From: Cyclobacteriaceae bacterium
Lineage (GTDB): Bacteria; Bacteroidota; Bacteroidia; Cytophagales; Cyclobacteriaceae
Reading direction: 5' to 3'
NCBI GenBank assembly: GCA_016787645.1
Contig: JAEUUF010000002.1
Location: 186,001-250,000, forward strand
DNA: 64,000 nucleotides
The position numbers and the translations under genes were made by a program. Position 1 is the stretch's first letter, and each line of letters opens with the position of its first letter. Shown piece after piece: positions 15,129-54,121 of the stretch. The notes under the pieces are model-generated. The model saw nothing but the letters and a program-made list of their open reading frames with translations. It ran no database searches and had not been told where the DNA came from.

Positions 15129-15160
15129 TTTGAAGATTTGAAGATTTGATAATTTGAAGA
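15129..15160 (+). repeat. Octamer array, unit TTTGAAGA x4
   Basis: Four units in exact 8-base register (TTTGAAGA, TTTGAAGA, TTTGATAA, TTTGAAGA) start right after the permease stop codon. An array of the same unit and orientation lies on the other side of the FKBP gene at 16017. Confidence 0.85.
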
Positions 15161-15181
15161 TGGGGGAGGTAAGGCGGCATC

Positions 15182-16003
15182 TTATTTTGTGCCCTTCATC
15201 TTCTCTAGCAGTTCGGTTCTAAGTTGAGTGGCGCGGGGGTTGGACGCCATGGACGTGTCTGATTTAAGGAGCGCATCCAGGCTGTCGAGGGATTGCTTGT
15301 ATTGGCCCATCTTCTCCAGTGTGCGCACGCGGTACCAGCGCATGCCGGAATCATTGTTTGTATTGATGAACGCGATCATCTGGAGGTTTTCCTGGTGCAT
15401 GTTGGCATCGTTGAGCAGGTTCCATAGAATGCGATATTGGTTGTTGTCGTAATAGTATTTTGAGGTATCCGCGCTGTTTAGCAGGCGCTCACGGGTGGCA
15501 ATCATTTTCGCGTGACCACCGGTTTGGTAGGCGGCAAACAAAGTGTCGGAAAGACTCAGCTTGGGTTCGTTCACTTTCTTCATGATGTACTTGGTATACA
15601 CCAGGGTGGCATTGGGCGGGATGTCAGAACCAACTCCTTTTTCACCGTACGCGATGGCGGGAGGCAGAATCGCAACGATTTCATCGCCCTCGCGTAGTTT
15701 CATGGTTACTTCCGTAAAGCCTTTGATCATCCGGTCTTTGTTCGCCACAAAGGCAAACGATGAATCGGGCGGGCCGTTCGTGTTCCAGATTTCCTTGCCG
15801 TTGACGCTGAGAGCCAGGTAGGTCCACACTTTTGAGCCGGTCTCCACCGGGCGACCGGTTCCAATTTTGGTGTAAACGTATTTCAACCCGGACTCAGTGG
15901 TGATGGTATCGCCAACCACTATCGCACTGTCATTCTTGGGCGTGGTAGAACAGGCGGCTAATACTGCAACGTTGATCACCAGGTAGAGAAGTTGCTTCGT
16001 CAT
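15182..16003 (-). CDS. FKBP-type peptidyl-prolyl isomerase lipoprotein with C-terminal helical domain
   Basis: 273 residues. The lipobox VLAAC (Cys18) indicates a lipoprotein. Residues ~35-145 form an FKBP domain, with family landmarks at KVWTYLALSVNGKEIW, the IKGFTEVTMKLREGDE segment and PPAIAYGEKGVGSDIPPNATLVY, so it should assist prolyl isomerisation or chaperone folding in the periplasm. Residues ~155-273 are helical and TPR-like, perhaps for client binding. The gene is alone on its strand and bracketed by two arrays of the same octamer (15129-15160 and 16017-16048). Confidence 0.82.
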   Translation of the reverse strand: MTKQLLYLVINVAVLAACSTTPKNDSAIVVGDTITTESGLKYVYTKIGTGRPVETGSKVWTYLALSVNGKEIWNTNGPPDSSFAFVANKDRMIKGFTEVTMKLREGDEIVAILPPAIAYGEKGVGSDIPPNATLVYTKYIMKKVNEPKLSLSDTLFAAYQTGGHAKMIATRERLLNSADTSKYYYDNNQYRILWNLLNDANMHQENLQMIAFINTNNDSGMRWYRVRTLEKMGQYKQSLDSLDALLKSDTSMASNPRATQLRTELLEKMKGTK

Positions 16004-16016
16004 GGAGGGGTGGGGA

Positions 16017-16048
16017 ATTTGAAAATTTGGAGATTTGAAGATTTGAAA
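16017..16048 (+). repeat. Octamer array, unit ATTTGAAA/G x4
   Basis: Four units in 8-base register (ATTTGAAA, ATTTGGAG, ATTTGAAG, ATTTGAAA), variants of the unit seen at 15129. They lie just upstream of the FKBP start and 19 bases from the esterase stop. Confidence 0.85.
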
Positions 16049-16066
16049 ATGCTGGATAAGGAGTTG

Positions 16067-16993
16067 TCACTTGGCGAGGAGGAAAGTGGCGGGTATGTCG
16101 AAACGTTTACGCCACGCGCGTTCGCTATGATTTTCCCCGGGGAAGAAACGGGTCATCCAGTTTTTTGACGTCCATCCTTTGCCTTTCATGATTTCGTCAA
16201 CTTCTTTCTGCAGGGGAGGGTAGAGCGCATCCAGGGTGGCATCGCCGTAGTCAAAGTAAATTTTGTGTTTCTTGGGATTCGGCAAGTGTGCGGCCAGGTA
16301 ATTGTAAAAGGTAGCAGGGATGGGGTTGTTCTCCATGCTGAAGATGCCCGGCCAATGGGTGGAGAGACATGCGGCACCACCAAAAACATCCGGGTACTCG
16401 CAGATCGCGTACATGGAAATCAATCCGCCCATGCTGCTGCCGGCGATGAAAGTATTCGATCGGTCTTTACGGACAGCGTATGTATTATCGATAAAAGGCT
16501 TGACTTCAGTCACCAGGAACTTCAGGTAGTCGTCGGAGTGAACCTTGCCGTCGCCGAATACACTATAGCCGTTGGTCCGGGTAGCTTTGTAAATCGTGTC
16601 CCGCTGCGCCTGGCTGAGTGACTCGAAGGGCTTCTGCGGGAAATAGTCGGTGTGCCGGGTTGGGCCGCCATTCCAAATGCCCACCACAATGACATCGCGG
16701 ATCTTTTTGGACTTCATCAGGGGACCGAGCACATCATCCACCTCCCAGGCTTGCTTGTTCCAGGTGGCGAGGGAATCAAACAGCATCTGGCCATCGTGCA
16801 TGTACAGCACCGCAAATTTCTTTTTACCATCGTATCCCTCCGGCAACCAGATGTCGATGTTGCGGGCGGTCACATATTCAGAAATAAAATTCTCCACCCG
16901 CACCACCTTGCCCGTCAACACCGCAGGCAACTGAGCCAATGAGTGGAAGAGCGGAAGCGTGATAAGTACCAGGGTGGGAATAATCTTAGTCAT
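16067..16993 (-). CDS. Secreted alpha/beta-hydrolase, putative esterase (esterase D / CE1-like)
   Basis: 308 residues. A signal peptide ends near HSLAQ (residue 21). The core motifs are VLYMHDGQMLFD (oxyanion region), GSSMGG with nucleophile Ser187, and GENHSERAW with the expected catalytic His near the C-terminus. This fits the putative-esterase family, which includes enterochelin esterase-like and carbohydrate esterase 1-like proteins that cleave acyl esters. The substrate cannot be read off; the polysaccharide genes nearby make a carbohydrate ester possible. An exact -7 element sits 40 bases upstream. Confidence 0.8.
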   Translation of the reverse strand: MTKIIPTLVLITLPLFHSLAQLPAVLTGKVVRVENFISEYVTARNIDIWLPEGYDGKKKFAVLYMHDGQMLFDSLATWNKQAWEVDDVLGPLMKSKKIRDVIVVGIWNGGPTRHTDYFPQKPFESLSQAQRDTIYKATRTNGYSVFGDGKVHSDDYLKFLVTEVKPFIDNTYAVRKDRSNTFIAGSSMGGLISMYAICEYPDVFGGAACLSTHWPGIFSMENNPIPATFYNYLAAHLPNPKKHKIYFDYGDATLDALYPPLQKEVDEIMKGKGWTSKNWMTRFFPGENHSERAWRKRFDIPATFLLAK

Positions 16994-17033
16994 TTGCGAT
17001 GTCTTGTGAGTAATGGAGAAGTGTCCGGTGAGG

Positions 17034-17041
17034 CAAAAGTA
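17034..17041 (-). promoter_or_regulatory. -7 promoter element TACTTTTG for the esterase gene
   Basis: This is a perfect TAnnTTTG match on the minus strand, 40 bases upstream of the ATG at 16993. No clear -33 TTTG is seen. Confidence 0.5.
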
Positions 17042-17063
17042 ATCATTCAGTCAATCCATTCCA

Positions 17064-17100
17064 GAATCACCGAATCACCGAATCGGTAAATCAGCGAATT
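17064..17100 (+). repeat. Octamer array, unit GAATCACC
   Basis: GAATCACC, GAATCACC, GAATCGGT, AAATCAGC and GAATT lie in 8-base register. The array runs into the stop codon of the PhyH gene (17099-17101), so it begins inside that coding region. Confidence 0.75.
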
Positions 17101-17911
17101 AGACCACCGGATTCAACGGTGTATCAATGACTTTGCCTACCTCCGCCCCCGGGCACCAGGTATTCCAATCATCCACCTGGTTGTCATTTTCAGGCTGCTT
17201 GAGTTTCATGTCTTTGTCCATGTAGATCACCGTCATCACCTTCCGGATTTCCGGCGTCGTGTTCGCTCCCGCGCGATGGAAGACCCAGCCGGAATGGAAA
17301 CTGACTTCACCCAGGTCGAAGGGTTCGATGACATGCGGGAAATCCGTGACGCGAAGCCGCCGTTCGATCGCGACTTCACTCTGGTCGCTGATCATCAGGT
17401 CGCGGCCCTCGACTACCTGGTGACTGCCCGCGCTGAATTCCAGGGGGCCCATCTCCAGGGGCACAGCGTGAAGCGGAATCCAGGCCGTAACCGTCTTGTC
17501 GGTCTCCAGCGGCCAGTAATATTGGTCGGCGTGCCACGGCGTGATGCCACCGCCTCCTTCTTTAAAGAGTGCCTGGTCGTGGTAGATCCGCACACCGGAT
17601 GTCTCCATCAGGCCGCTGGCAATGCCCGCGAGTCGCTTGGAGAAAACCAGTTCGCGGATGTCATCATCTTCACGCCAAAGGTTGAAGATCTGCAAGAATG
17701 CTTTGCCGTAGGTGTCGCGCTGGTTGAGGTCAGGTTTGCCGGCGCTTTTCTCGGCGACCTTTTTGCCAATACAATTACTGAAGAACTCAAGCGCCTCCCC
17801 TGGGAATACTTCTTTCAATTTGATGAAGCGATGTTTCTGGTAGAAGGCAACATGTTTTGCCGTCAGTGGATAGGGCTCGTCGAGGGCCCTTGTCAAGGAT
17901 GGCGTAAGCAT
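17099..17911 (-). CDS. Phytanoyl-CoA dioxygenase (PhyH) family protein
   Basis: 270 residues from the ATG at 17911; the frame extends to 17983, but the 17911 start follows the leader AACCAACCACAACT and a near-consensus -7 CATCTTTG (17932-17939). PhyH proteins are Fe(II)/2-oxoglutarate oxygenases. Metal ligands are visible as WHADQ (His127, Asp129) and HRAGAN (His212), with Arg223 placed to bind 2-oxoglutarate. There is no signal peptide, so it is cytoplasmic. Substrates of bacterial members vary (lipids, phosphonates, ectoine, secondary metabolites), and the neighbours do not narrow this. Confidence 0.82.
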   Translation of the reverse strand: MLTPSLTRALDEPYPLTAKHVAFYQKHRFIKLKEVFPGEALEFFSNCIGKKVAEKSAGKPDLNQRDTYGKAFLQIFNLWREDDDIRELVFSKRLAGIASGLMETSGVRIYHDQALFKEGGGGITPWHADQYYWPLETDKTVTAWIPLHAVPLEMGPLEFSAGSHQVVEGRDLMISDQSEVAIERRLRVTDFPHVIEPFDLGEVSFHSGWVFHRAGANTTPEIRKVMTVIYMDKDMKLKQPENDNQVDDWNTWCPGAEVGKVIDTPLNPVV

Positions 17912-18099
17912 AGTTGTGGTTGGTTGAGCATTCAAAGATGCTAAGATTTCAGCAGTTTCTTCATGGGGAGTGCCATAAGACACAGCAAACTGTCACGGCC
18001 GCTGGTTCAAACTCAACAGCCATCTGCCGAAAAGGGAACGGATTGGTTTCATGAGTTCTTTTCACTTATTTTTAAAACACTCCCTTACCCAAAGACTCC

Positions 18100-19284
18100 A
18101 TGACTTCGGCTGCCTTAAGAATCAAACTGTATCTTGTTCTCGCGCTTCTTGCTTCTTGCGGCAGAAATGATAAACCGGCTGAGAACGGAGTGGCTGAAAC
18201 CACTTCGAGCCCGGTCAACACTCCATCCTCCGCTGACAGTCAGGTGGCGCCGCTGTTTGATCCGGTACCGGTGGCCGGAGGATTTCAGGGCATCGATTCT
18301 ACCAGTTTAGCGGTGCCGGATACCCTGCCTTATGGTGCTGTCCTTGCCCACTACCAGCGTCTTGAGGACCCGAAACCTCCGGGTACAACTGCGTACACGG
18401 ATTTTTTCATGAGAGGACTACCGAATGGGAAACCTGTTCGGATAGCACGGTTTCTTAACAAACCACTGGATGTGCTGTGGGATCTGAAAAATGCGAGGGT
18501 CTATGTTGTCACCGTCAACGGTATTTTCTTTTTGAACTACAAGACCAGCAAGCCGCTGGTGCGGATATCCGATGACTTACCTCGCGACCTCGACTTTCGT
18601 ATCTCCTGGGTAGACAGTGTCACTGGCCGCTTTCGCATTGCTTATGCCCGGTCAGGATCAGATGAAGCATTTAATAACAAATATGAAGCACTGAAGAAAA
18701 ATCCTGACAGCCGTACCGAGGATGAAGGTGTGCCTATTCTTGCCTGCATCTCTGAATTGGACCTACAGGGTCATTGGTCAACCATCAAGGAAATCGCTTC
18801 GAAGGATGGTGCGGATTACTCCCCGGGATTGAAAGTGCTCGATCCCTTTATACACAAGCGGGACGGCACGACCACCGCTTCCCTCCTGAAGGAATGCAGT
18901 TGCTGGGGTCAGTTTAAGGACGACCCTGGCCCCCTTCAGGATTCGATCACCTTCGTCCAGCTTCTCGCCAAATCAAAACTGGACTTTCCGGAGCCATACG
19001 AAGGAATGGTTCGGTATGATTTGAATGTGAACTACACTTTGCTTGTTTCAGCATTCAACTTGAATTCGTATGGATCTGAAAACGGTGACTGCTACCTGTC
19101 CGGGCCTGTCTACCTGATGGACAATAGAAGTGAAATTCTTACACCGATGCCCATTGAAGCCAATGACCGGGTTACGGATACCCCTGAATACCTGCTGGTC
19201 AACGATGTGCTGTTTGAAAAGGCAACTGCCAAAACCTTGGTTCAACTCCCCGGAGCCACCGACGTGGTGATTGTGAGGAAGTAG
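18100..19284 (+). CDS. Lipoprotein of unknown function
   Basis: 394 residues. A lipobox at LLASC (Cys20) is followed by a Ser/Thr/Pro/Ala-rich linker (about 25-50) and a globular region rich in beta strands and aromatic residues. A CSC motif occurs near residue 268 (LLKECSCWG). No family was recognised. It stands alone between the divergently read PhyH gene and the TonB-receptor module, and is probably periplasmic or surface-anchored. Composition matches the neighbours, so there is no sign of transfer. Confidence 0.7.
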   Translation: MTSAALRIKLYLVLALLASCGRNDKPAENGVAETTSSPVNTPSSADSQVAPLFDPVPVAGGFQGIDSTSLAVPDTLPYGAVLAHYQRLEDPKPPGTTAYTDFFMRGLPNGKPVRIARFLNKPLDVLWDLKNARVYVVTVNGIFFLNYKTSKPLVRISDDLPRDLDFRISWVDSVTGRFRIAYARSGSDEAFNNKYEALKKNPDSRTEDEGVPILACISELDLQGHWSTIKEIASKDGADYSPGLKVLDPFIHKRDGTTTASLLKECSCWGQFKDDPGPLQDSITFVQLLAKSKLDFPEPYEGMVRYDLNVNYTLLVSAFNLNSYGSENGDCYLSGPVYLMDNRSEILTPMPIEANDRVTDTPEYLLVNDVLFEKATAKTLVQLPGATDVVIVRK

Positions 19285-19508
19285 CGGAACAGACCAGCAC
19301 CGTCATCAATCCCGGATATGAGCGGCCAGCGTGCTGATGAGTCAATTCAGTGATGCCCGGCATTCAGCGTAGCGACCTTGCACCGGGCTGTCATCATCCG
19401 GTTTTCCCGACACTCCATCCGTGAACTCCGACAGTTCGGAAACTCTGGTTCGGCAGTAACCCTCCTTGATCGTCAATTTTACCGTGTAATCGCACAAAAC
19501 GCGTGAAC

Positions 19509-28882: not shown

Positions 28883-28906
28883 TTGAGTGATTGGTGCCAG
28901 ACTCTT

Positions 28907-28955
28907 GGTACTGGGTGCTAGGTGCCAGGCACTAGGTTCTGGGTGCCAGGTACGG
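28907..28955 (+). repeat. Heptamer array, unit GGTGCCA/GGTACTG x7
   Basis: Seven units in exact 7-base register: GGTACTG, GGTGCTA, GGTGCCA, GGCACTA, GGTTCTG, GGTGCCA, GGTACGG. It lies 24 bases after the CPBP gene. Downstream at 28984-28997 is a small palindrome (GCCCC-GCTA-GGGGC) of another repeat type. Confidence 0.85.
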
Positions 28956-29131: not shown

Positions 29132-30565
29132 ATGAAAAACTTTCTCCTTACCATCCTGTTAGCCTCATCGCTGTTCGCGGTCGCGCAGGAAAAACATTAT
29201 TACCAGACTGATTTCTCCACCGAAGAATTCACCGCGCGCCGGGCCAAAGTGTATGAGGCCATCGGCAACAATGGCATCGCGGTCATCCAGGGTGCCAGCG
29301 GACTTGCCGGGTTCAGCGTTTTCCGGCAGTCGAATGAATTCTATTACCTCTCTGGTTTGGAATCGGCGCACGCGTATTTGCTTCTGAATGGTCGCAGCCG
29401 CAAAACCACGCTCTACCTCCCGCACCGCAACGAAGGACGGGAATCCAATGAAGGGAAAACACTTTCAGCCGAAGATGCCGACCTGGTGAAGAAGTTGACA
29501 GGTGTCGACAACGTGCGGGGGATTGAATTCCTGTCGTCCGATCTCGTTGGTGCCGACCTGATCAAACCTCCCGCGATGACTTTCTACACGCCGCTCAGCC
29601 CCGCGGAGATCGGCAACGACAGCCGTGACGAGCTGCTCGGCGGCCAGGCGCGCGCCGCGGCGGATCCGTGGGATGGGCAGCCGTCCAGGGAAGCGCGGTT
29701 CGTTCAAATGGTCAAAGAGCGGTTCCCCCAGTTTGAGATCCGCGACCTGTCGCCGACCCTCGATGCGATGCGGCTGATCAAAAGCCCCAAAGAAATTGAA
29801 CTCATCCGCAAAGCCACTTTGCTCGCCGGCCACGGCATCATGGAAGCCATGCGGTCGACCGCGCCCGGAGTGTATGAATACCAGTTGGATGCGGCGGCGA
29901 AGTATGTGTTCCACCTCAATGGTGCCCGCGGCGATGGGTATGCCTCCATCATCGGAGGTGGAACGAACGCGTTCTACGGCCACTATTTCCACAAGACCGA
30001 TGTGCTGAAAGATGGCGACCTCGTGCTCATGGACTACGCCCCGGATTATCGCTATTATACCAGCGACGTCACCCGCATCTGGCCGGTGAACGGCAAGTTT
30101 GACAAGGCACAGACGGAGTTGTACAACTTCATTGTCGCCTATCGCGATGCGCTGTTCAAGTACATCAAGCCCGGCGTCACCGCCGATGATGTGCTTGACC
30201 GGGCCGCTGCCGACATGAAGCAATACCTGGTTGGCAAGCAATTTGCGAAGCCCGCGCACCTCAAAGCCGTGCAAGAAGGCATCACTTTCCGCGGGCACTT
30301 CCAGCATCCCGTGGGCATGGCCGTGCACGATGTTGGCCGTGTGCGTGGTGTGCCCCTGCAACCCGGCATGGTCTTCACCATCGACCCCATGATCTGGATC
30401 CCCGAAGAACGCCTCTACATCCGCATCGAAGATGTGGCCGTGGTCACAGCCGATGGCGTGGAGAACCTGAGCGCGTTTGTGCCGTCGAAGCTGGAAGATG
30501 TGGAGCGCACGATAAAAGAGAACGGGGTGATTCAATTTCGGCCGCCGGTGAACAGTGAACGGTGA
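29132..30565 (+). CDS. M24 aminopeptidase P-like metallopeptidase, secreted
   Basis: 477 residues. A signal peptide ends near FAVAQ (19). An N-terminal creatinase-like domain (about 25-195) is followed by the pita-bread catalytic domain. Metal ligands by alignment to Xaa-Pro aminopeptidase: Asp301, Asp312 (SDVTRIWPVNG), His392 (HPVGMAVHD, second His399), Glu433 (IRIEDVAVV). The fourth ligand, normally Glu in FTIEPG, is Asp418 here (FTIDPM), a conservative but unusual change. It would trim N-terminal residues before proline in the periplasm. The stop codon lies inside a heptamer array. Confidence 0.88.
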   Translation: MKNFLLTILLASSLFAVAQEKHYYQTDFSTEEFTARRAKVYEAIGNNGIAVIQGASGLAGFSVFRQSNEFYYLSGLESAHAYLLLNGRSRKTTLYLPHRNEGRESNEGKTLSAEDADLVKKLTGVDNVRGIEFLSSDLVGADLIKPPAMTFYTPLSPAEIGNDSRDELLGGQARAAADPWDGQPSREARFVQMVKERFPQFEIRDLSPTLDAMRLIKSPKEIELIRKATLLAGHGIMEAMRSTAPGVYEYQLDAAAKYVFHLNGARGDGYASIIGGGTNAFYGHYFHKTDVLKDGDLVLMDYAPDYRYYTSDVTRIWPVNGKFDKAQTELYNFIVAYRDALFKYIKPGVTADDVLDRAAADMKQYLVGKQFAKPAHLKAVQEGITFRGHFQHPVGMAVHDVGRVRGVPLQPGMVFTIDPMIWIPEERLYIRIEDVAVVTADGVENLSAFVPSKLEDVERTIKENGVIQFRPPVNSER

Positions 30566-30579
30566 CCTGTAAAATGTAA
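30547..30579 (+). repeat. Heptamer array, unit GGTGAAC, overlapping a stop codon
   Basis: GGTGAAC, AGTGAAC, GGTGACC, TGTAAAA and TGTAA lie in 7-base register. The TGA at 30563-30565 that ends the M24 gene is part of the third unit, so the last residues (Asn-Ser-Glu-Arg) are array-encoded. Confidence 0.8.
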
Positions 30580-30591
30580 ATCCTCTTCTTC

Positions 30592-30620: not shown

Positions 30621-30760
30621 CGGTGACCGGTGAGCAGTGAACCGTGAACCGTAAACCGTGAACTGTAATTGGTAGTCAGTAATCGGTGATCGGTAATCGG
30701 TGATCGGTAATCGGTAATCGGTGATCGGTGATCGGTAATCGGTAATCGGTAATCGGTAAT
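30621..30760 (+). repeat. Heptamer array of 20 units, CGGTAAT/CGGTGAT
   Basis: Twenty consecutive units with no register break. The first nine are diverse (CGGTGAC, CGGTGAG, CAGTGAA, CCGTGAA, CCGTAAA, CCGTGAA, CTGTAAT, TGGTAGT, CAGTAAT). The last eleven are only CGGTAAT or CGGTGAT. Variation is almost all A/G or C/T. This is the most regular array in the window. Confidence 0.95.
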
Positions 30761-31059
30761 TTGGCGACCAATTGGTGACTATGAGCTGTTGGGAATGCGG
30801 GCGGGTGTCCACGAACAGCGCGGCGCAAAGCGAGGGCATGTGGGATGGCCGGCATGTGCGGTTGATTAGGCGGGGCGGGTCTCGCTGCGCAGTGTTCGTG
30901 GGGTCCTTTTCTTTTGGTTACTTTTCTTTTGGACAAGCAAAAGAAAAGTGACAATCTCAGACACGTGGGAATGCTAACTCGCAGCAGAGGCACACCAGTC
31001 ATGGAAATTCTTCAGTACCCGATGAGTGGAAGTCACTAATGCGTAGTAGATTAGTACGC
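30761..31059. other. Intergenic stretch with a 15-bp inverted repeat
   Basis: No gene is seen. It contains a strong hairpin: GTTACTTTTCTTTTG (30917-30931) against CAAAAGAAAAGTGAC (30938-30952), 15 pairs including one G-T, with a 6-base loop. A partial direct copy of the left arm (CCTTTTCTTTTGG) lies just before it. This resembles a dispersed repeat rather than a classical terminator. The rest is unremarkable, and no promoter for the M1 gene is clear. Confidence 0.6.
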
Positions 31060-40078: not shown

Positions 40079-40190
40079 GTTCAAAGTTCAAAGTTAAAGG
40101 TTCAAGGTTCACACTGAAAGTCCACAGCCCACCGATCACCGATTACTGATCACCGTTTACAGTTCACTGTTCACCGGTCACCGATTACCT
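40079..40190 (+). repeat. Heptamer array of 16 units, GTTCAAA to ATCACCG/TTCACTG
   Basis: GTTCAAA, GTTCAAA, GTTAAAG, GTTCAAG, GTTCACA, then units such as CCCACCG, ATCACCG, ATTACTG, TTTACAG, TTCACTG and TTCACCG. The 7-base register holds across 112 bases. It ends 15 bases before the ferritin stop. Confidence 0.9.
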
Positions 40191-40774: not shown

Positions 40775-40934
40775 GTTAAAGGTTCAATGTTCAAAGTTCG
40801 CAGCTCACCGGTACCGATTACCGATCACCGTTTACAGTTCACTGTTCACCGTTCACCGTTCACTGTTCACCGTTCACTGTTCACCGTTCACTGTTCACCG
40901 TTCACTGTTCACTGTTCACCGCTCACCGTTCACA
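40775..40934 (+). repeat. Heptamer array of ~23 units, GTTCACC/GTTCACT
   Basis: It opens GTTAAAG, GTTCAAT, GTTCAAA, continues through one 6-base unit (GGTACC), then about 17 units of GTTCACC or GTTCACT and close variants. The last unit contains the stop codon of the ChaN-like gene (40930-40932, minus strand). Confidence 0.93.
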
Positions 40935-42079: not shown

Positions 42080-42189
42080 GTTCAAGTTTATAGTTCAAAG
42101 TTCAAGGTTCAAAGTTACCGTTCACAGCTTACCGTTCACAGTTTACAGTTCACGGTTCACAGTTTACCGTTCACAGTTCACCGTTCAGG
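42080..42189 (+). repeat. Heptamer array of ~16 units, TTCACAG/TTCAAAG
   Basis: GTTCAAG, TTTATAG, TTCAAAG, TTCAAGG, TTCAAAG, a 6-base TTACCG, then TTCACAG, CTTACCG, TTCACAG, TTTACAG, TTCACGG and similar. It is the same unit family as 40079 and 40775, upstream of the ChaN-like start. Confidence 0.9.
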
Positions 42190-46450: not shown

Positions 46451-46457
46451 CGGGGAG

Positions 46458-46534
46458 CGGTGAACGGTGAACAGTAAACGGTGACCTGTGAACAGTAAGC
46501 AGTAAATAGTAAGTAGTAAGTAGTAAGTAGTGGA
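46458..46534 (+). repeat. Heptamer array of 11 units, CGGTGAA to TAGTAAG
   Basis: CGGTGAA x2, CAGTAAA, CGGTGAC, CTGTGAA, CAGTAAG, CAGTAAA, TAGTAAG x3, TAGTGGA, in unbroken register, eight bases after the permease stop. Confidence 0.9.
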
Positions 46535-46592: not shown

Positions 46593-46747
46593 CTAGTGCC
46601 CAGCGCCTAGTGCCCAGCGCCCAGCGCCCAGTCCCCAGTGCCCAGCCCAGTGCCTAGCGCCCAGCCCAGTGCCCAGCGCCCAGCCCAGTGCCTAGCGCCT
46701 AGCTCCCAGTGCCGAGCGCCCAGTGCCTAGAGACCAGCACCTAGTGT
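46593..46747 (+). repeat. GC-rich heptamer array, CTAGTGC/CCAGCGC
   Basis: About 22 units alternating CTAGTGC, CCAGCGC, CCAGTGC and CTAGCGC, with several shortened CCAGCC and CAGTGC units. It fills most of the 339-base gap between the FtsX permease and the Gfo/Idh gene, a gap that otherwise holds only the arrays and the 21-bp element. Confidence 0.9.
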
Positions 46748-46789: not shown

Positions 46790-48106
46790 ATGAAAACACG
46801 ACGGGCATTCATCCGGTCGGCAGCAACGGCGACGGCCGGTATCGGGCTGACTCAATTCCTTCCTTCTGATCTCTTTGCTCTCGGAAAGCCCGGGGTTGCG
46901 CCGTCGGACAAAATTAACGTCGCGGCGATTGGGGTGAACGGCATGGGATGGTCCGACATCAAGTCGCTGATGAAACTGCCCGAAGTAAACGTAGTCGCCC
47001 TTTGCGATGTGGATAACAATGTGCTCGCCAAGCGCACCGAGGAGCTAAGCAAATCGGAGGTGAAGGTGAAGACCTATACCGATTACCGGAAGATGCTGGA
47101 GGATAAGGACATCCATGTGGTGGTAATCGGCACACCGGACCATTGGCATTGCCTGCAAATGGTGGAGGCCTGCGCCGCGGGAAAGGACGTCTATGTCGAA
47201 AAGCCCGTAGGCAACTCCATCCAGGAGTGCCGGGTAATGGAGGCTGCTCAAAAGCGCTATAGCCGTGCCGTGCAAGTGGGCCAATGGCAACGGAGTGTTC
47301 CCCACTTCGTGGATGCACTCAATTTCATTCGCACAGGCAAGCTCGGTAAGATCCGAACGGTAAAGGCGTGGGCGTACCAGGGATGGATGACCAACATCGA
47401 GAAAAAACCGGATGGACCAGTTCCTGCGGGTGTCGACTACGAGCGGTGGCTGGGCCCTGCAACGAAGAGACCCTTCAATCCCAACCGTTTTCACTTCAAC
47501 TTCCGCTGGTTCTGGGACTATGCCGGAGGTCTCATGACGGACTGGGGTGTGCACCTGGTGGACTATGCGTTGCTGGGAATGGATGCGAAGTTCCCCAAGA
47601 GCGTGATCGCCTCGGGCGGCCAATTTGCCTACCCGGATGGTGCGCAAGAGACTCCCGATACACTGGCGGCTATCTATGAGTTCGATGGCTACAACATGAT
47701 CTGGGAACACGCCCAAAGTATCAGCAATGGTAACTATGGGCGCGATCATGGGATCAGCTACATCGGCAACAACGGAACCCTCGTGCTCGACCGCAATGGA
47801 TGGGAAGTGATCCCGGATGAAAAGCGGATGGAAGCAATGCCATTGCAGAAACCCTCAGCCGGTCTCGATTTGCACACGCTGAATTTTATAGAGGCCGTCA
47901 AGAGCAGGAAGTTCGAAAACCTCACCGCGCCGATCCAGGCCGGATCACACGTGGCCGTGGTTTGCCAGATGGGCAACATCTCGTACAAAGTCGGAGGCAA
48001 GGTGTCGTGGAACGCGGAGAAGGATGCCTTCAACGAGAAGGAGGCTAACGAGTGGAAGAAGGCGCGATATCAGAATGGGTATGTGGTGCCGAAGGTGGGT
48101 GGGTAG
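46790..48106 (+). CDS. Tat-exported Gfo/Idh/MocA-family oxidoreductase
   Basis: 438 residues. A twin-arginine leader (MKTRRAFIRSAATATAGIGL) precedes a Rossmann domain (VAAIGVNGMGWSDI, VVALCDVD) and the EKPVGNSIQE motif with the usual catalytic-site Lys, then the alpha/beta sugar-binding domain. Periplasmic members of this family in Bacteroidota often act on sugars or cyclitols with tightly bound NAD(P). The substrate is unknown. The stop codon is the first three bases of a heptamer array. Confidence 0.88.
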   Translation: MKTRRAFIRSAATATAGIGLTQFLPSDLFALGKPGVAPSDKINVAAIGVNGMGWSDIKSLMKLPEVNVVALCDVDNNVLAKRTEELSKSEVKVKTYTDYRKMLEDKDIHVVVIGTPDHWHCLQMVEACAAGKDVYVEKPVGNSIQECRVMEAAQKRYSRAVQVGQWQRSVPHFVDALNFIRTGKLGKIRTVKAWAYQGWMTNIEKKPDGPVPAGVDYERWLGPATKRPFNPNRFHFNFRWFWDYAGGLMTDWGVHLVDYALLGMDAKFPKSVIASGGQFAYPDGAQETPDTLAAIYEFDGYNMIWEHAQSISNGNYGRDHGISYIGNNGTLVLDRNGWEVIPDEKRMEAMPLQKPSAGLDLHTLNFIEAVKSRKFENLTAPIQAGSHVAVVCQMGNISYKVGGKVSWNAEKDAFNEKEANEWKKARYQNGYVVPKVGG

Positions 48107-48152
48107 TGGATAGTGGGCAGTGATCCGTAATCGGTGATCTGTAATCGGTGAT
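48104..48152 (+). repeat. Heptamer array, TAGTGGA to CGGTGAT, overlapping a stop codon
   Basis: TAGTGGA, TAGTGGG, CAGTGAT, CCGTAAT, CGGTGAT, CTGTAAT, CGGTGAT. The TAG of the first unit is the stop of the Gfo/Idh gene. Confidence 0.88.
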
Positions 48153-48174
48153 CAGAAACGTGAATAACCTCTTT

Positions 48175-48237
48175 ATTCTGTATTCCAAAATTCTGAATTC
48201 CGAATTCCGTATTCCCCTTCTAGATTCTAGCTTCTAT
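48175..48237 (+). repeat. Heptamer array, AATTCCG/CTTCTAG
   Basis: ATTCTGT, ATTCCAA, AATTCTG, AATTCCG x2, TATTCCC, CTTCTAG, ATTCTAG, CTTCTAT. A very similar composite array occurs at 49117-49172 on the other side of the gene at 48259. Confidence 0.85.
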
Positions 48238-48981: not shown

Positions 48982-49040
48982 TTCGTGAAAATCTGGGTGA
49001 TCTATAGTAAATATAAAAAGAAACCTCGGTAAGGGCCGGG

Positions 49041-49096
49041 AGTGATCGGTAATCCGTAATCTGTAATCTGTAATCTGAATCGGTGAATCGGTGATC
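49041..49096 (+). repeat. Heptamer array, GGTAATC/TGTAATC
   Basis: AGTGATC, GGTAATC, CGTAATC, TGTAATC x2, a 6-base TGAATC, an 8-base GGTGAATC, then GGTGATC. Confidence 0.85.
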
Positions 49097-49116
49097 AGAG
49101 CAGTGAAGAAGCTAAT

Positions 49117-49172
49117 ATTCTGTTTTTCGAATTCTGAATTCCGTATTCCCCTTCTAGCTTCTAGATTCTATC
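49117..49172 (+). repeat. Heptamer array, ATTCTGA/TTCTAGC, overlapping a stop codon
   Basis: ATTCTGT, TTTTCGA, ATTCTGA, ATTCCGT, ATTCCCC, TTCTAGC, TTCTAGA, TTCTATC. The CTA at 49168-49170 is the (minus-strand) TAG stop of the next gene. Confidence 0.85.
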
Positions 49173-49509: not shown

Positions 49510-49519
49510 GGCGTTGAAT

Positions 49520-49547
49520 AGGGGTTAGGGGCTAGGGGTCAGGGGCT
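49520..49547 (+). repeat. Heptamer array AGGGGCT/AGGGGTT
   Basis: AGGGGTT, AGGGGCT, AGGGGTC, AGGGGCT. It is the inverted counterpart of the array at 49628. Confidence 0.85.
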
Positions 49548-49627
49548 AGTGAAAAAACCAACCTCGTTCCGACCTCATTCCTGGAAAGCAACTTAGCCAA
49601 AACTACTTTAACTAATCCCTCTAATCT

Positions 49628-49648
49628 CTGACCCCTAGCCCCTGACCC
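49628..49648 (+). repeat. Heptamer array CTGACCC/CTAGCCC
   Basis: CTGACCC, CTAGCCC, CTGACCC. Its reverse complement matches 49520-49547, so the two could fold into a stem of about 20 pairs around an 80-base loop. Confidence 0.8.
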
Positions 49649-49655
49649 CTTCTCA

Positions 49656-50243
49656 TCAACGTTTGGCTTTCTTCGTCCAGAAATCAATCTCCACCCCAAT
49701 TTCATCACTGATAAAGTGGTCGTCGGTGGTGTGCTTGAAGGTGGTGCCTACGCCGTAGTCGCTGCGAAGGAGAGAGGTGCGGCAGCGGAATCCATAAAGA
49801 GTTTCGGTGCGCCGTTCGGTGATTGTAAAAGGCAATTGGATCGTGCGGGTCACGCCATGTAGCTGCAACGTGCCTATGGCGAGATAGCCGTCGCCGGCCT
49901 TTTGAATGTGCTCGCTGGTGAAGATGATTTCTGGAAACCGGGCGATGTCAAAAAAGTCTTTGGATTTCAGGTCTTCATCCCGCGCGGGATCGCCGGTATT
50001 GATGCTGCCGGCCTGGATCACCGCTTTGATGGAAGCCTTGGTGATGTCACCATCAGGAATCGTCAGTGCAATAGTATATGCATTGAATTTCCCCGTAATC
50101 CGGGTGATGCCAAGCGAGATGGGTACAGAAAACTGAACGGTCGAATGATTGGTCTAGGCCACCAATGCCACTTCAGTCGTCTGCCCTCGGGCCGCCGTAG
50201 AGATGGTGAGCACGTAAAGTACAAGAATGAAGAACCGAATCAT
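49656..50243 (-). pseudogene. YceI-family protein gene interrupted by an in-frame TAG
   Basis: From the ATG at 50243 the frame encodes a signal peptide (MIRFFILVLYVLTISTAARG), then TTEVALVA, then TAG at 50154-50156 (codon 30). It continues in the same frame with TNHSTVQFSVPISLGITRIT, GKFNAYTIA and the rest of a YceI lipocalin-like domain to 49656. HSTVQFSV is the usual YceI start motif and often follows a Trp, so a single TGG-to-TAG change is likely. No ATG lies soon after the stop, and a GTG at 50021 would lose the first strands. It is a recent pseudogene or a sequencing error. YceI proteins bind isoprenoid-like lipids in the periplasm. Confidence 0.8.
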
Positions 50244-50252
50244 GGCTTCTGC

Positions 50253-50687
50253 TTATTTGGGAAGATGCGCGACGAGTTCCACTTCCAATTTAGCTTCGGG
50301 CATATAGAGTCGCGAGACTTGTACCCAGGTGGCCGAGGGGAAGTCGCCTTTATAGAAAGCTTTTCGGGCGGCATTGTATTTCTTCATCGCCTCGATGTCG
50401 GTGGTGTAGAGATTTTCCTTTACGACATTCTGAAACCCGGCACCATAGGCCTGAAGGGAACGCTCCAGCGCGCGGTACACACTGGTGATGCCCTGGGGGG
50501 TGACGTCCAGCGCGACCGCCCCGGAGATGTAAAGTATGTTATCCACTTTGAGGACCTGCACGTATCCCGCGGAGGTATCCTGCTTGAGGGTCTGTCCCCA
50601 ATGCCACTTTTCTTTGCTGATGGATTTGTCTTGCCCGTAGGTCGTGAGGGTGACCAACAGGGAGCATATGATGATGAATTGTCTCAT
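50253..50687 (-). CDS. Secreted RidA-family protein lacking the catalytic arginine
   Basis: 144 residues. A signal peptide ends near TTYGQ (19), unusual for RidA, which is normally cytoplasmic. The YjgF/YER057c fold is clear (YISGAVALDVTPQGITSVYR, GFQNVVKENLYTTDIEAMKK). Where RidA has FPARS with the imine-hydrolysing Arg, this protein has FPSATW, so 2-aminoacrylate deaminase activity is unlikely. The Glu in LEVELVA is kept. It starts upstream of the broken yceI gene on the same strand with 9 bases between, so the two form an operon. Confidence 0.8.
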   Translation of the reverse strand: MRQFIIICSLLVTLTTYGQDKSISKEKWHWGQTLKQDTSAGYVQVLKVDNILYISGAVALDVTPQGITSVYRALERSLQAYGAGFQNVVKENLYTTDIEAMKKYNAARKAFYKGDFPSATWVQVSRLYMPEAKLEVELVAHLPK

Positions 50688-50740
50688 GGACGAGTTAAAC
50701 GGCCCGGCCTAAGGCAAGTTGCCTGTGGTTCTATGTGGGA

Positions 50741-51127
50741 TCACTGCGCGGGAGGTTGCATCCTGCTTCCGACCAGGAACACCACCGCGATGATAGCGAG
50801 GGAGAAGGCGGGTACTACGAGGAACATAAACGCATTCTTCATATCCGGTGTATTAAGGATACCGCTGTAGGCAATGACGGAGATTACGGCGATCGTTTCC
50901 ATGGTCGCATAAAGGACCAGCCGCGCCACCGGCGTCCAGGAAGAAGAGCGCATCTCAACGAGCACAAGGCAGATAAAGGGAAGGGCAACCCAGATGGTGA
51001 ACATAGTCATCAGCAGGGTAGACTCATTCCGTTGTCCCGCCCTGAACATCAGCCACAGCGAAAGTGTAGCCCCAACCAGGGTCAGGAAAAGGCCAACACG
51101 GCGAAGGATGGGCAACAGTGTTTCCAT
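50741..51127 (-). CDS. Four-helix membrane protein, unknown
   Basis: 128 residues, nearly all in four hydrophobic segments (about 8-26, 38-57, 68-90 and 98-120), with short polar ends. No motif was recognised. It lies upstream of the RidA-like gene by 53 bases on the same strand. Confidence 0.6.
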   Translation of the reverse strand: METLLPILRRVGLFLTLVGATLSLWLMFRAGQRNESTLLMTMFTIWVALPFICLVLVEMRSSSWTPVARLVLYATMETIAVISVIAYSGILNTPDMKNAFMFLVVPAFSLAIIAVVFLVGSRMQPPAQ

Positions 51128-51174
51128 GATTACTCGCTAATGAAGTTAAAAAAGTTCCACGAGACCCCAGCACC

Positions 51175-51238
51175 GCTTACCGCTCACCGATTACCGTTCA
51201 CTGTTCACCGTTCACTGGTTACTGGTCACCGATTCACC
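51175..51238 (+). repeat. Heptamer array, GTTCACC/GTTCACT, overlapping a stop codon
   Basis: GCTTACC, GCTCACC, GATTACC, GTTCACT, GTTCACC, GTTCACT, GGTTACT, GGTCACC, GATTCACC. The TCA at 51226-51228 is the minus-strand TGA stop of the VOC gene. It is the same unit family as the arrays at 40775 and 42080, some 10 kb away. Confidence 0.88.
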
Positions 51239-51663
51239 GCTTCCTCCAACCCCCGTATATCAATCTTCCTCATTTTCAACATCGCCTGCATGGCGCGTTG
51301 GGCTTTCGCTGGGTCTTTGTCGCTGATCAGCTTGATCAATTGGTTGGGAATGATCTGCCAGGATAAGCCATACTTGTCTTTCAGCCATCCGCACATCGAC
51401 TCGGACCCGCCGCCCGAGGTGAGCTTATTCCACAACGAGTCCACTTCTTCCTGTGTCTGGCAATCGACATAGAGCGAGATGGCTTCCGTGAACTTGAATT
51501 TGGGCCCGCCATTCAACGCCATGAAGCGCTGGCCTTCCAGTTCGAACACCACCATCATAGGTGATGCACTGAGAATGCGTGAGTTATTGAAAACGGAACA
51601 ATAAAATTCCGCAGCCTCTTTGGCCTGGCTGTCAAACCAGAGGTAGGTGGTTATCTTCTGCAT
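51226..51663 (-). CDS. VOC-superfamily (PhnB-like) protein
   Basis: 145 residues. Two beta-alpha-beta-beta-beta modules of the vicinal-oxygen-chelate fold are seen: KITTYLWFDSQAKEAAEFYC at the start and EAISLYVDCQTQEEVDSLWN in the middle, with the family ending GLSWQIIPNQL then a helix. It matches the PhnB / 3-demethylubiquinone-type group of unknown enzymatic role. Such genes often travel with AHSA1-type SRPBCC genes, as here. Confidence 0.8.
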   Translation of the reverse strand: MQKITTYLWFDSQAKEAAEFYCSVFNNSRILSASPMMVVFELEGQRFMALNGGPKFKFTEAISLYVDCQTQEEVDSLWNKLTSGGGSESMCGWLKDKYGLSWQIIPNQLIKLISDKDPAKAQRAMQAMLKMRKIDIRGLEEAVNR

Positions 51664-51688
51664 AATCTATAGAGTGTTGCTTTGCCTC

Positions 51689-51755
51689 TTTAGCCTTATA
51701 CCTTGAGCTTTTAGCCTTCAGCCTTCAGCTAAAAGCTAAAAGCTAAAAGCTAAAG
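51689..51755 (+). repeat. Heptamer array, TTTAGCC to AAAAGCT
   Basis: TTTAGCC, TTATACC, TTGAGCT, TTTAGCC, TTCAGCC, TTCAGCT, AAAAGCT x3, AAAG. The left half is partly complementary to the right half, so it can form a hairpin. Confidence 0.85.
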
Positions 51756-51802
51756 AAATGGGTAACTGACAAGTTAACAAATTCACCAATGCCGCAATCC
51801 GG

Positions 51803-52186
51803 TCACTTGGCTCTTATCGCTCCTCTAACCCCGCCCATCCACGTGACAGGGAAGGCCGTGATCGCGAGAGTAATTGGGTACCAATGCTCAGAGAGGTCCC
51901 AGCCGACAATGGTCCCGATGATGCAGAGGATTGTACCAATCACACCGAGGATAATCACATGTCTCAATGGACGATCCGGGGCGAGTTTTGAAGTGGCGTA
52001 CCCACCGAGGAAGGTGTACACCAGCCGATAACCCAGGGCGGTCGCCAGCATCCATGTGGTGAACGAACCGGCATTTTGCGGTGGAAAAATGCCGGCTTTT
52101 TCCAGGATTGTATCTGTACCGGTTGATAGCAGCACGTTGATCAGAATTCCCGCCAGGACGGCCCAAACGCTCTTCAATGCTGTCAT
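51803..52186 (-). CDS. Small membrane protein in the SRPBCC operon
   Basis: 127 residues with about four hydrophobic segments (VWAVLAGILINVLLSTGTDT, GYRLVYTFLGGY, VIILGVIGTILCIIGTIVGW, and a C-terminal one). It overlaps the upstream SRPBCC gene by four bases, so it is translationally coupled. Similar small membrane proteins accompany AHSA1-type genes in many Bacteroidota, but the role is unknown. Confidence 0.62.
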   Translation of the reverse strand: MTALKSVWAVLAGILINVLLSTGTDTILEKAGIFPPQNAGSFTTWMLATALGYRLVYTFLGGYATSKLAPDRPLRHVIILGVIGTILCIIGTIVGWDLSEHWYPITLAITAFPVTWMGGVRGAIRAK

Positions 52187-52656
52187 AAATGGTCAAATAG
52201 TTTGATCTGTTGCGCAAGATAGCGCTCCAGTCGATCAATATTTTGTTTCATGCCTTCATCGGCCTTAAAGACTTCGATTACTTTCTTCAACTGCTCCTCG
52301 GATTCAAATACCGATGTCATGGTGACCAGCGTATCATCGCCCTCGCTGACCAGCGTGATCGTAGCTTCAAACAAGGGCCCGGTCACGTGGTTATAAACCA
52401 GTTTCTCTCCTTCTACAACCTCCGAAAACACATTTTTGTTTTTGTAGTCCGTGCCATCGGGGCCGTGCATGATGAATTCCCAAGCCCCGCCCTGCTTAAC
52501 CTCCATTTTGTGGATGGTGTTGGTAAACCCATTGGGTCCCCACCAGTGTTTTATGTGTTCGGGGTTGGTCCACACTTCCCATACGAGGTGGCGTGGAGCC
52601 TTGATCAACCGGCTAATGCTCATCCGTCGGTTCTTGAGGCTATCATTCAATTCCAT
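52183..52656 (-). CDS. SRPBCC (AHSA1-type) domain protein
   Basis: 157 residues. The AHSA1/CalC-like helix-grip fold is seen from SISRLIKAPRHLVWEVWTNP, HIKHWWGPNGFTNTIHKMEV, GGAWEFIMHGPDG and a C-terminal helix. These proteins bind hydrophobic small molecules or assist folding; the ligand is unknown. It forms an operon with the two-domain SRPBCC gene and the ArsR regulator upstream. Confidence 0.83.
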   Translation of the reverse strand: MELNDSLKNRRMSISRLIKAPRHLVWEVWTNPEHIKHWWGPNGFTNTIHKMEVKQGGAWEFIMHGPDGTDYKNKNVFSEVVEGEKLVYNHVTGPLFEATITLVSEGDDTLVTMTSVFESEEQLKKVIEVFKADEGMKQNIDRLERYLAQQIKLFDHL

Positions 52657-52669
52657 AGGCGCGATTGAT

Positions 52670-53653
52670 TTATTTCAGAAGGGTGGCAAGGTATTTTTCA
52701 AGCTGGTCGTAGGTTCCGTGGAAGCCCTGGTTCATGCTCGCGAATCCTGCTTCATACGTTGCGCGCTCTTCGTCGGTTTCGTGGATCGGCCAGCCACGCA
52801 GGGTGAGGATGGTCTTCCCATTCTTCTCTTCCAATTGCATGATGTTCAGCATCTCCAGCGGCCAGGTGTTACTGGCAGGATGGCGGAGCACTCGCCCTTT
52901 GACGTCGCAGAATGATACAATAAATACCATCCGTTCCGGGGCCTTGATCTCGCGGTAAACGAATTTTCCGTACATCGGCTGTTTACCGAGGGCTACCATG
53001 GCATAATGAAAAATTCCGCAGGGACGAAGATCCATCTTTAGCACTTCCAGCTTCATGCCCACCGGTCCCCACCAATGCGCCAGGTGCTCAGGTTCCGTCA
53101 TGGTTTTGAATACCAGTTCACGCGGTGCGTTGAAGATGCGGGAGATGACCAGTTCTTTCCGATGCGGCCCAGGTACATTTCCTTCTACATGGGATTCAAG
53201 TTTGACCAGCGATTCAGTCCATCCGGCACCGGTCATTTCGTCCATGGCGTCAGGCAACCCGATGTGTACCAACGTAAGCCGGGTGCGATTGCCCAAGTCC
53301 TCGAACTCGATGATCACTTGCATCTCTACTGGATAATCACCAGGCATTCCGTAGTGCGAAGCAGGGACGACATTGCCATGCGCGTCGGCAAAGGAATCTG
53401 TCCAGACGATGCGCTTCAGAGGCACAATCTCTTTGTAAATGCCGGTAACCCAGAACTGTTGTCCTTCGGGCGACTGCATGCAATAGAGGTACTTACCGCC
53501 AACGCGGAAATCAACTTTGATCGTGGGTGCGGTGAATCCGCCGGGTCCCCACCATTGGGCGAGGAGTTCAGGATCAGACCAGGCCTTGAAGACCAGTGCG
53601 ACTGGCGCGTCGATCAGCCGGGTGATGGTCAGGGGTTTACTTTCGTTTGCCAT
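52670..53653 (-). CDS. Tandem SRPBCC (AHSA1 x2) protein
   Basis: 327 residues made of two successive AHSA1-type domains: 1-160 (TITRLIDAPVALVFKAWSDP, LLAQWWGPGGF) and 170-327 (VISRIFNAPRELVFKTMTEP, HLAHWWGPVGM). Most relatives are single-domain, so this looks like an internal duplication or fusion, with the downstream single-domain gene as a third copy. The start overlaps the ArsR gene by 17 bases. Confidence 0.83.
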   Translation of the reverse strand: MANESKPLTITRLIDAPVALVFKAWSDPELLAQWWGPGGFTAPTIKVDFRVGGKYLYCMQSPEGQQFWVTGIYKEIVPLKRIVWTDSFADAHGNVVPASHYGMPGDYPVEMQVIIEFEDLGNRTRLTLVHIGLPDAMDEMTGAGWTESLVKLESHVEGNVPGPHRKELVISRIFNAPRELVFKTMTEPEHLAHWWGPVGMKLEVLKMDLRPCGIFHYAMVALGKQPMYGKFVYREIKAPERMVFIVSFCDVKGRVLRHPASNTWPLEMLNIMQLEEKNGKTILTLRGWPIHETDEERATYEAGFASMNQGFHGTYDQLEKYLATLLK

Positions 53654-54005
53654 GTGACTTCTTTCTTGATTTTGAGGTTGATACTTGCTTGGGTTCTCTT
53701 TGAAGGATCTTCAGGTAGTCTTCCAGGGCGTCAAGCTTTTGGTTCCAGAATTTGCGGCATTGCTCTACCCAGTTGGAGACTTCACTGAGTTTCTCCAGCC
53801 TTGCCTCACAGTAGCGTTCACGCCCTTGCGGCCGGATAGTGACCAACCCGCACTCGGTGAGGAGCTTGATGTGCTTTGAAATGGCGGGACGACTCACGTC
53901 GAAGTTCTCCGCCACGGTGTTGAGGTTCAACGGCTTGTGGGCCAGCATGTGGAGGATCTCCCGCCGGGTGGGGTCGGCAATGGCCTGGAATACGTCTCTG
54001 CGCAT
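53637..54005 (-). CDS. ArsR-family winged-helix repressor
   Basis: 122 residues. A compact winged helix (RRDVFQAIADPTRREILHML, NTVAENFDVSRPAISKHIKL, LLTECGLVTIRPQGRERYC) lacks the Cys metal sites of ArsR/SmtB, as is typical of the ArsR group paired with SRPBCC proteins, where the signal is unknown. It heads an operon of ArsR, double SRPBCC, single SRPBCC and membrane protein. Two inverted repeats overlap its own promoter, so autorepression is likely. Confidence 0.88.
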   Translation of the reverse strand: MRRDVFQAIADPTRREILHMLAHKPLNLNTVAENFDVSRPAISKHIKLLTECGLVTIRPQGRERYCEARLEKLSEVSNWVEQCRKFWNQKLDALEDYLKILQREPKQVSTSKSRKKSHGKRK

Positions 54006-54015
54006 AGGTTGATCG

Positions 54016-54062
54016 TGTAACTGATCGGTTACAAATGTAATGTAACCTTTCGGTTACGCAAT
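54016..54062 (-). promoter_or_regulatory. Promoter and twin operator of the ArsR-SRPBCC operon
   Basis: On the minus strand ATTG (54059-54062), 19 bases, then TACATTTG (54032-54039), an exact -7 match. GTAACC-N4-GGTTAC (54042-54057) fills the spacer, and TGTAAC-N6-GTTACA (54016-54033) covers the predicted start of transcription. The GTAAC half-site thus occurs four times in alternating orientation. Binding of a dimeric repressor to either site would block RNA polymerase. Confidence 0.75.
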
Positions 54063-54083
54063 AATAATCTGAGATTTTTCAGT

Positions 54084-54121
54084 CTTGCCATTAGCCAAAA
54101 GCCAATAGCCAACAGCCAACC
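54084..54121 (+). repeat. Heptamer array, TTAGCCA/ATAGCCA
   Basis: CTTGCCA, TTAGCCA, AAAGCCA, ATAGCCA, ACAGCCA, ACC, in 7-base register, between the ArsR promoter and the end of the alanine dehydrogenase gene. Confidence 0.8.

Follow-up and report, generated by a model that had tools for sequence, protein, structure and literature searches.

Why does the intergenic DNA in one region of a Cyclobacteriaceae genome read as successive words of seven bases? We investigated this question in a stretch of 64,000 nucleotides from Cyclobacteriaceae bacterium (hereafter, the window; assembly GCA_016787645.1, contig JAEUUF010000002.1, positions 186,001 to 250,000 of the forward strand), in which an earlier inspection of the letters (the original prediction) had listed 20 imperfect tandem arrays, 17 with a period of 7 and three with a period of 8, and had ascribed them to a process that favours 7-base periods. 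The arrays were compared with further samples of the same genome (4.02 Mb in 28 contigs; the study genome) and with the nearest relative found, the sister species G062 (amino acid identity 91% for MocA and 88% for the M24 peptidase). The imperfect heptanucleotide tandem arrays are best read, with a probability of roughly 0.6, as a lineage-specific burst of a known repeat class, in which 7-nucleotide slippage or misaligned recombination would act together with point mutation and would be filtered by selection.

Period and units of the arrays

All of the 20 listed sites were periodic, 17 at lag 7 and three at lag 8 (p 0.001–0.007 each, hence all below 0.01), when the DNA from 15 bases before to 70 bases after the predicted start was compared, at the predicted period, with 1000 dinucleotide-preserving shuffles. 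The predicted period gave the top score among periods 4 to 12 at every site, and the arrays called by Tandem Repeats Finder (TRF) overlap the listed sites. Three of the predicted starts need a small correction: near 48175, 49117 and 51689, the best segments were 48189–48215, 49151–49170 and 51703–51754. A lag scan of the window gave eight strong segments at lag 7, more at lags 14, 21 and 28 (overlapping rows at these lags were counted as multiples of 7), one at lag 19, and none at the remaining lags up to 30. Ten second-order Markov simulations of the window gave a mean of 0.0 segments at each lag.

The 809-kb sample of the study genome, which includes stretches partly chosen around pattern matches, contained 36 arrays of period 7, 4 of period 8, and none or one of each other period below 14. 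The clean set of 598 kb, which includes the window and leaves out the match-chosen stretches (L029 and L032 among them), contained 19 arrays of period 7, 3 of period 8, and at most one of any other period below 14. The window accounted for 12 of the period-7 and 2 of the period-8 arrays, and the 534 kb outside the window held 7 and 1, respectively, again with at most one at any other period below 14. The match-chosen stretches were kept for the analyses of mismatches, unit families, gene calling and placement, and stretch L039, which consists entirely of N, was set aside. In 449 kb of the sister species, 13 arrays had period 7 and 3 had period 8, with at most one for each other period below 14. 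Two Bacteroidota of other families, G215 and G317, had 12 and 7 period-7 arrays, respectively, and at most one at any other period below 14; all 19 were intergenic, and their words were largely different from those of the study genome. Units of AAAACCC occur in G215. The predicted process that favours 7-base steps agrees with the period spectra of these four genomes; periods other than 7 and 8 were not equally frequent, and unit length 7 outnumbers the other short unit lengths in the study genome, as in the heptanucleotide class of simple sequence repeats (SSRs).

The recurrent unit families were GTTYACN, GATYACN (equivalent to CGGTRAT), CTRGGYN, AGCYAAN and some others, in a sample that was partly match-chosen, and GTTCAAA forms a further family among the arrays of the study genome. 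The original prediction had stated that the unit sequences differ between sites. They do differ, and the statement is incomplete in that the families are few and several recur at multiple sites. Its conclusion that the arrays are not one amplified repeat is supported. Unit family can also change within an array: in a 320-bp array of the study genome (L263:12178–12497, a match-chosen stretch), CTRGGYN gives way to GTTCACC with the register kept, along the path GGCACTA/GGCGCTG, ACTGGTC and GTTCACC. In seven long arrays, unit identity decreased from 0.84 at a distance of one unit to 0.76 at 11 units, and off-phase identity was 0.19. Transitions were in excess among the lag-7 mismatches, with transition/transversion ratios of 2.21 in the study genome and 1.52 in the sister species, versus 1.13 in orthologous alignments of the two, a yardstick that is mostly coding DNA and makes the comparison rough. 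Perfect stretches exist (L265:14852–14916 and window 51727–51754), and the majority of arrays are imperfect. A telomere-like (CCCCTAA)8 array lies at L263:12538–12598, after the 320-bp composite array.

Placement, regional concentration and turnover

Genes were called with a simple codon-usage gene caller. Of the arrays in the study genome and the sister species, 47 of 49 were intergenic, although 83% of the study-genome sample was called coding. Arrays abutted gene 3′ ends in 17 cases and 5′ ends in 3 (p = 0.0026), where abutting means lying within approximately 10 bp of the gene end or overlapping it by up to 15 bp. The sense strand of the 17 arrays at 3′ ends was richer in stop codons in 12, poorer in 2 and equal in 3.

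Between 28 and 55 kb of the window, nearly every intergenic gap holds an array. The density there was 1.39 arrays per kb of intergenic DNA versus 0.08 elsewhere in the clean set (approximately 17-fold), and the syntenic 60 kb of the sister species had 0.56 versus 0.10 elsewhere (6-fold). These densities indicate that the arrays are genome-wide, with a regional hotspot that is partly common to the two species. Within the hotspot, the order of the ferritin and ChaN-like genes is swapped relative to the sister species and the Na/H exchanger lies elsewhere, and the flanking parts at 21–27 kb and 55–64 kb are collinear. Three of the four synteny breakpoints between 40 and 50 kb carry arrays. Because nearly every gap in the hotspot holds an array, this link is evidence of a regional association and not of a cause, and the breakpoints were rejected as proof of anything beyond the region. 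Two blocks of the region gave no alignment longer than 80 bp in the syntenic region of the sister species (60 kb). One, at window 32.7–39.5 kb, has a lower content of guanine plus cytosine (0.44–0.48 in 4-kb windows) and was possibly acquired; the other, at 51803–54005, consists of four genes, two with AHSA1 domains, and has AGCYAAN arrays on both flanks.

We compared 18 collinear orthologous gaps. The sister species had an array in 4 of 4 gaps with an array in the study genome versus 4 of the 14 other gaps (Fisher p = 0.023); the array at 28904 was below the threshold of this comparison, and its gap was scored among the 14. Where a gap was orthologous on both sides, the unit family was usually kept and the word altered. 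In the gap between the CAAX protease and M24 genes, the study genome has CTRGG, and the sister species has CTCGG (CTCGGYN units) and further arrays. In the MacB–MocA gap, CGGTGAA corresponds to CGGTGAC, and an extra CYAGYGC array in the study genome is absent from the sister species. Two gaps that were orthologous on one side only hold unrelated heptamers: beside 51663, AGCTAAA in the study genome and ATGGACC in the sister species, and beside 49509, YAGGGGY and TTTTTCA, respectively. A CCCCGACTCCGTGAAACACTACGTCGGGG-like element adjoins arrays of the sister species in L274 and L273 of contig C120.

Three consecutive GTTYACN units gave 48 matches in the study genome, none in any of 35 other genomes of the same genus (a set to which G062 does not belong), and matches in 2 of 22 genomes of the same order. 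Judged from such sequence comparisons, the arrays look recently gained. At the M24–M1 gene pair, the gain is recent. The gap between these genes is 4 bp (G060), 17 bp (G069) and 32 bp (G020) in congeners, and in G016, no array was seen in the gap, the length of which is uncertain because the M1 start is uncertain. In the study genome, where M1 has two possible starts, the gap is 473 or 494 bp, and in the sister species, it is 431 bp; both contain arrays and other repeats. The C-terminal tail of M24 has been replaced. Congeners end in FRPAVELPLKK, FRAPVSLPFKK, FRAPLKPKD or FHPPITASDKK, and the two sister species end in FRPPVNSER (study genome) and FRPPVTGNQ (G062), both of which are encoded by heptamers, stop codon included. 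A conserved peptidase has here had its C-terminus rewritten by an array, a caution that intergenic repeats can move gene ends. Additional repeat-like material, including AAAAGAAAAGTGAC and its inverse, lies at window 30781–31000 within the expanded gap.

The arrays of the window are summarized in Table 1.

Table 1. Tandem arrays of the window, with unit words, positions and the context or test result noted for each.
Unit words	Position (strand)	Context and support
GGTGCYR/CTRGGYN heptamers	28904–28951 (+)	Between the genes for CAAX protease and M24 peptidase; TRF; p = 0.003; best segment 28904–28929
GTGAACN heptamers	30548–30580 (+)	Gives final codons and stop of M24 gene (TGA 30563–30565); p = 0.001
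CGGTRAN heptamers, 20 units	30621–30760 (+)	Second half mostly CGGTRAT; TRF and shuffle test
GTTCAAA heptamers	40079–40111 (+)	TRF and shuffle test
GATYACN, then GTTYACN heptamers	40130–40189 (+)	TRF
GTTCAAA, then GATYACN and GTTCACY heptamers	40775–40933 (+)	Overlaps 3′ end of ChaN-like gene (40930); shuffle test
GTTCAAA, then GTTYACN heptamers	42080–42187 (+)	TRF and shuffle test
CGGTGAN, then AGTAAGT heptamers	46451–46531 (+)	Begins at stop of MacB/FtsX gene; shuffle test
CYAGYGC heptamers with slips	46593–46746 (+)	TRF adds a period-19 sub-repeat; shuffle test
GTGGRYA, then CGGTRAT-like heptamers	48099–48153 (+)	TRF and shuffle test
ATTCYGN heptamers	48175–48215 (+)	Best segment 48189–48215; TRF and shuffle test
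TAATCNG heptamers	49042–49096 (+)	Best segment 49042–49077; TRF and shuffle test
ATTCYGN, then CTTCTAG heptamer-like words	49117–49170 (+)	Best segment 49151–49170; shuffle test
YAGGGGY heptamers	49519–49549 (+)	TRF and shuffle test
Weak GACCCCTAGCCCCT heptamers	49619–49650 (+)	Inverted relative to the 49519 array; p = 0.007
ACCGNTY/GTTCACY heptamers	51172–51241 (+)	Reaches 3′ end of 3-dmu-9_3-mt gene (51226); TRF and shuffle test
AGCCTTY, then AGCTAAA heptamers	51703–51754 (+)	TRF and shuffle test
AGCCAAN heptamers	54087–54124 (+)	TRF and shuffle test
ATTTGAAN octamers	15128–15161 (+)	TRF and shuffle test
ATTTGAAN octamers	16016–16050 (+)	TRF and shuffle test
Short GAATCACC octamers, 2.6 copies	17064–17084 (+)	TRF and shuffle test

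Origin of the arrays

We infer that slippage or recombination is the motor of the arrays. An array would originate from a chance duplication within an intergenic gap, and strand slippage or misaligned recombination would then lengthen and shorten it in 7-nucleotide steps. Point mutations, with transitions in excess, would arise and be copied along with their unit, and because they are copied on in this manner, a long array could drift to another unit family with its register intact. Since 7-nucleotide steps break reading frames, arrays would survive between genes; they would be best tolerated after stop codons and more rarely against start codons, and an array that reaches a gene end could supply the stop.

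Several points weigh against this reading. Slippage alone leaves the preference for 7 over 5, 6 and 8 unexplained, and the 17-fold regional concentration, which is partly present in the sister species, needs another cause. The genes mutS1 and mutL of the study genome were found over the cut-off and whole, so no simple repair defect lies behind the burst, and loss of mismatch repair was rejected as its cause. The turnover that bears on gain and loss of units was seen between species. The ratio of transitions was measured against the rough yardstick described above, the sense-stop bias arises partly because the gene caller terminates genes at the first stop, and the small samples from G215 (2 to 2) and G317 (1 to 0) did not reproduce the 3′ bias. 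Moreover, the sample from 14 other congeners, 325 kb in 17 stretches, gave no period-7 array at the cut-off and two of period 8, and G215 has 7 arrays at period 18. The units of different genomes also seem to resemble one another more than shuffled units do, and GTRA cores are over-represented among them, an enrichment that was not used because it rests mostly on genomes found with a pattern that holds a GTRA core. In the congener G009, two period-8 TATCGGTG arrays (L287:1041–1071 and 1197–1219) lie in a stretch that had no period-7 array.

An unlikely alternative to slippage or recombination within each array is that gene conversion or a mobile element carried copies of blocks or seeds from one locus to another, perhaps together with hairpins resembling repetitive extragenic palindromes (REP-like, CCCCTTTAGGGG), which lie beside some of the arrays. 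Several unit families are indeed present at more than one locus. In the clean set, 11.9% of 152 unit pairs were within 1 base of each other versus 5.2% of 304 pairs between the study genome and the sister species, and composition-shuffled units reached only 2.5%. Of 47 array pairs, 10 had shared blocks beyond those in any of 30 unit shuffles, and composite blocks of GTTCAAA followed by GATYACN/GTTYACN flank the ferritin gene on both sides. Under a null that keeps unit order, however, the three longest shared blocks had p values of 0.12–0.13, although 3 of 26 pairs still had p = 0 of 100, and when four genomes were sampled at one array per 3 kb, within-genome likeness had p values of 0.14–0.16. 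In the window, an array is present 17 bp from one REP-like hairpin and 27 bp from the other, but some further hairpins lie in stretches with no detected array (L040 and L301). A role as binding sites or RNA signals is improbable, for example in post-transcriptional regulation, which has been suggested for TAACTGA repeats, or as a three-frame stop or trailer. It would account for the placement at stop codons and for the sense-strand stops (12 to 2), and translational regulation has been proposed for repeats directly before starts in Beggiatoaceae (PMC4679880). The arrays studied here, however, stand after stops more than before starts, their units and lengths change between sister species in the same gaps, and the triple GTTYACN unit is missing from the 35 congeners. 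A search of 27–56 kb of the window against Rfam at the gathering threshold gave no match, and when 6 DNA strands from three arrays were folded, each was equalled by 27 or more of 200 shuffles. A hairpin or palindrome basis was likewise rejected (unit self-complementarity 3.49 versus 3.51 for shuffled units).

The different heptamers beside the same genes in the two sister species, and the one shared region with a change of gene order, bear on whether a lineage-specific process beyond ordinary slippage writes DNA in 7-nucleotide steps at chosen intergenic sites, which we consider quite improbable. An active generator of new intergenic arrays, for example an enzyme that writes from a short template, or a polymerase that advances in 7-nucleotide steps, is very improbable. 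The unrelated heptamers at 51663 and 49509, where one flanking gene is shared, the telomere-like array in L263 together with the AAAACCC units in G215, and the restriction of arrays to the two sister species among the genus members sampled would all fit such a generator, but the gaps with unrelated heptamers are orthologous on one side only, and those orthologous on two sides mostly keep the family. Finally, the assembly is in 28 contigs, and an artefact of assembly or binning is nevertheless hardly credible: arrays of the same kind stand at orthologous gaps of the second assembly, and pattern matches occur in named records, among them those of Daejeonella lutea, Myroides odoratimimus and a Scytonema chromosome that is nearly complete.

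Two other repeated elements were observed in these samples. The REP-like hairpin CCCCTTTAGGGG is at window 30592 and 46559 (3 in the study-genome sample and 3 exact in that of the sister species), and CGCAGAGRCGC-like 9-mer repeats are in gaps at window 40054, 40749 and 43929 (6 in each of the two samples).

Relation to known heptanucleotide repeats

Four consecutive GWTYACN units were found in at least 119 stretches of GTDB species genomes, although some of these matches may be coding or due to chance. By record title, the matches listed came from Cyanobacteria, Bacteroidota, Chloroflexota, Planctomycetota, Acidobacteriota, Verrucomicrobiota, Gemmatimonadota and others. The remainder of 80 listed loci (571 kb) contained 63 further period-7 arrays, and the top counts at periods that are not multiples of 7 were 11 (period 18) and 10 (period 8). 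A control pattern with the letters reversed matched in 14 of 395 Bacteroidota versus 22 for the real pattern (counted from the table). A special GWTYACN motif was therefore rejected; the exact word matters little, and the step is more general than the word.

Short tandemly repeated repetitive sequences of heterocystous cyanobacteria are tandem heptamers with several families per genome. The arrays studied here share the tandem heptamers and the multiple families, in another phylum. Three heptanucleotides of Calothrix are mentioned in PMC4692102, and heptamer-derived satellites are mentioned in PMC6749651. The original prediction knew of no report in Bacteroidota, a claim that does not stand, since heptamer repeats have already been published for Bacteroidetes (PMC4060949, PMC4679880). 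In PMC4060949, 7 is the favoured unit length, with median over-representation in Bacteroidetes, Chloroflexi, Planctomycetes and Verrucomicrobia, and 7n3 is the sole SSR class with a positive median (0.75) over 34 Bacteroidetes genera in Table 2. The phyla over-represented there are also among the record titles of the GWTYACN matches listed. The 7n3 class of that survey comprises perfect repeats, whereas the arrays here are mostly imperfect, several are of mixed family, and one changes family in register.

TAACTGA heptamer repeats are described for five Bacteroidetes and also for Beggiatoaceae and Cyanobacteria, and other heptamers occur beside TAACTGA in Gramella, Aequorivita and Elizabethkingia (PMC4679880). 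As described there, these repeats resemble the present arrays in being intergenic 7-bp direct repeats of patchy phylogeny that are sometimes missing at the same gene pair in near relatives. The TAACTGA system, however, has one fixed word, mostly in short sets before starts in Beggiatoaceae, whereas many words are present here, more often after stops (17 3′ ends versus 3 5′ ends). The TAACTGA consensus, in any rotation or on either strand, was found in none of the 36 arrays listed for the study genome and the 16 for the sister species. With regard to the GGGAATC and GGGGA(C/T)T heptamers of Xanthomonas and Nostoc, which form G-quadruplexes (PMC4692102), the likeness lies in their strong non-coding bias and in their position, since sister species mostly have them between the same genes, where they vary extensively in length and sequence. 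Most units here lack G-tracts, unlike those heptamers; GCCCAGC, ACTGGGT, CCCAGTA, CCCCTAA and YAGGGGY are the exceptions that carry GGG or CCC in each unit.

The arrays belong to the known heptanucleotide repeat class and offer a good comparative setting for it. What they add to this class is that the unit family changes in register, that sister species differ by turnover in the same gaps, and that a regional hotspot is shared. The hotspot, the 3′-end placement, the recent gain and the sister-species turnover had escaped the original prediction. Its proposal of polymerase-driven expansion was already in print: 7 nucleotides as the length contacting the polymerase is an idea of Mrazek (2007), as cited in PMC4679880 and PMC4692102, and the present data neither support nor refute it. 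Why seven is the favoured bacterial step has been open since 2007 (as cited in PMC4692102). The species pair, together with congeners that have an array-free gap of 4–32 bp, provides a before-and-after site. Together with the many unit families within a single genome and the hotspot common to both species, this site allows heptamer arrays to be traced from birth through drift to loss.

A 1764-amino-acid protein of the window has a Por_Secre_tail sorting domain of the type IX secretion system (T9SS), which points to Bacteroidota, and a tandem repeat of another scale lies inside this protein: at window 9369–12426, a 408-bp unit is repeated 7.5 times.

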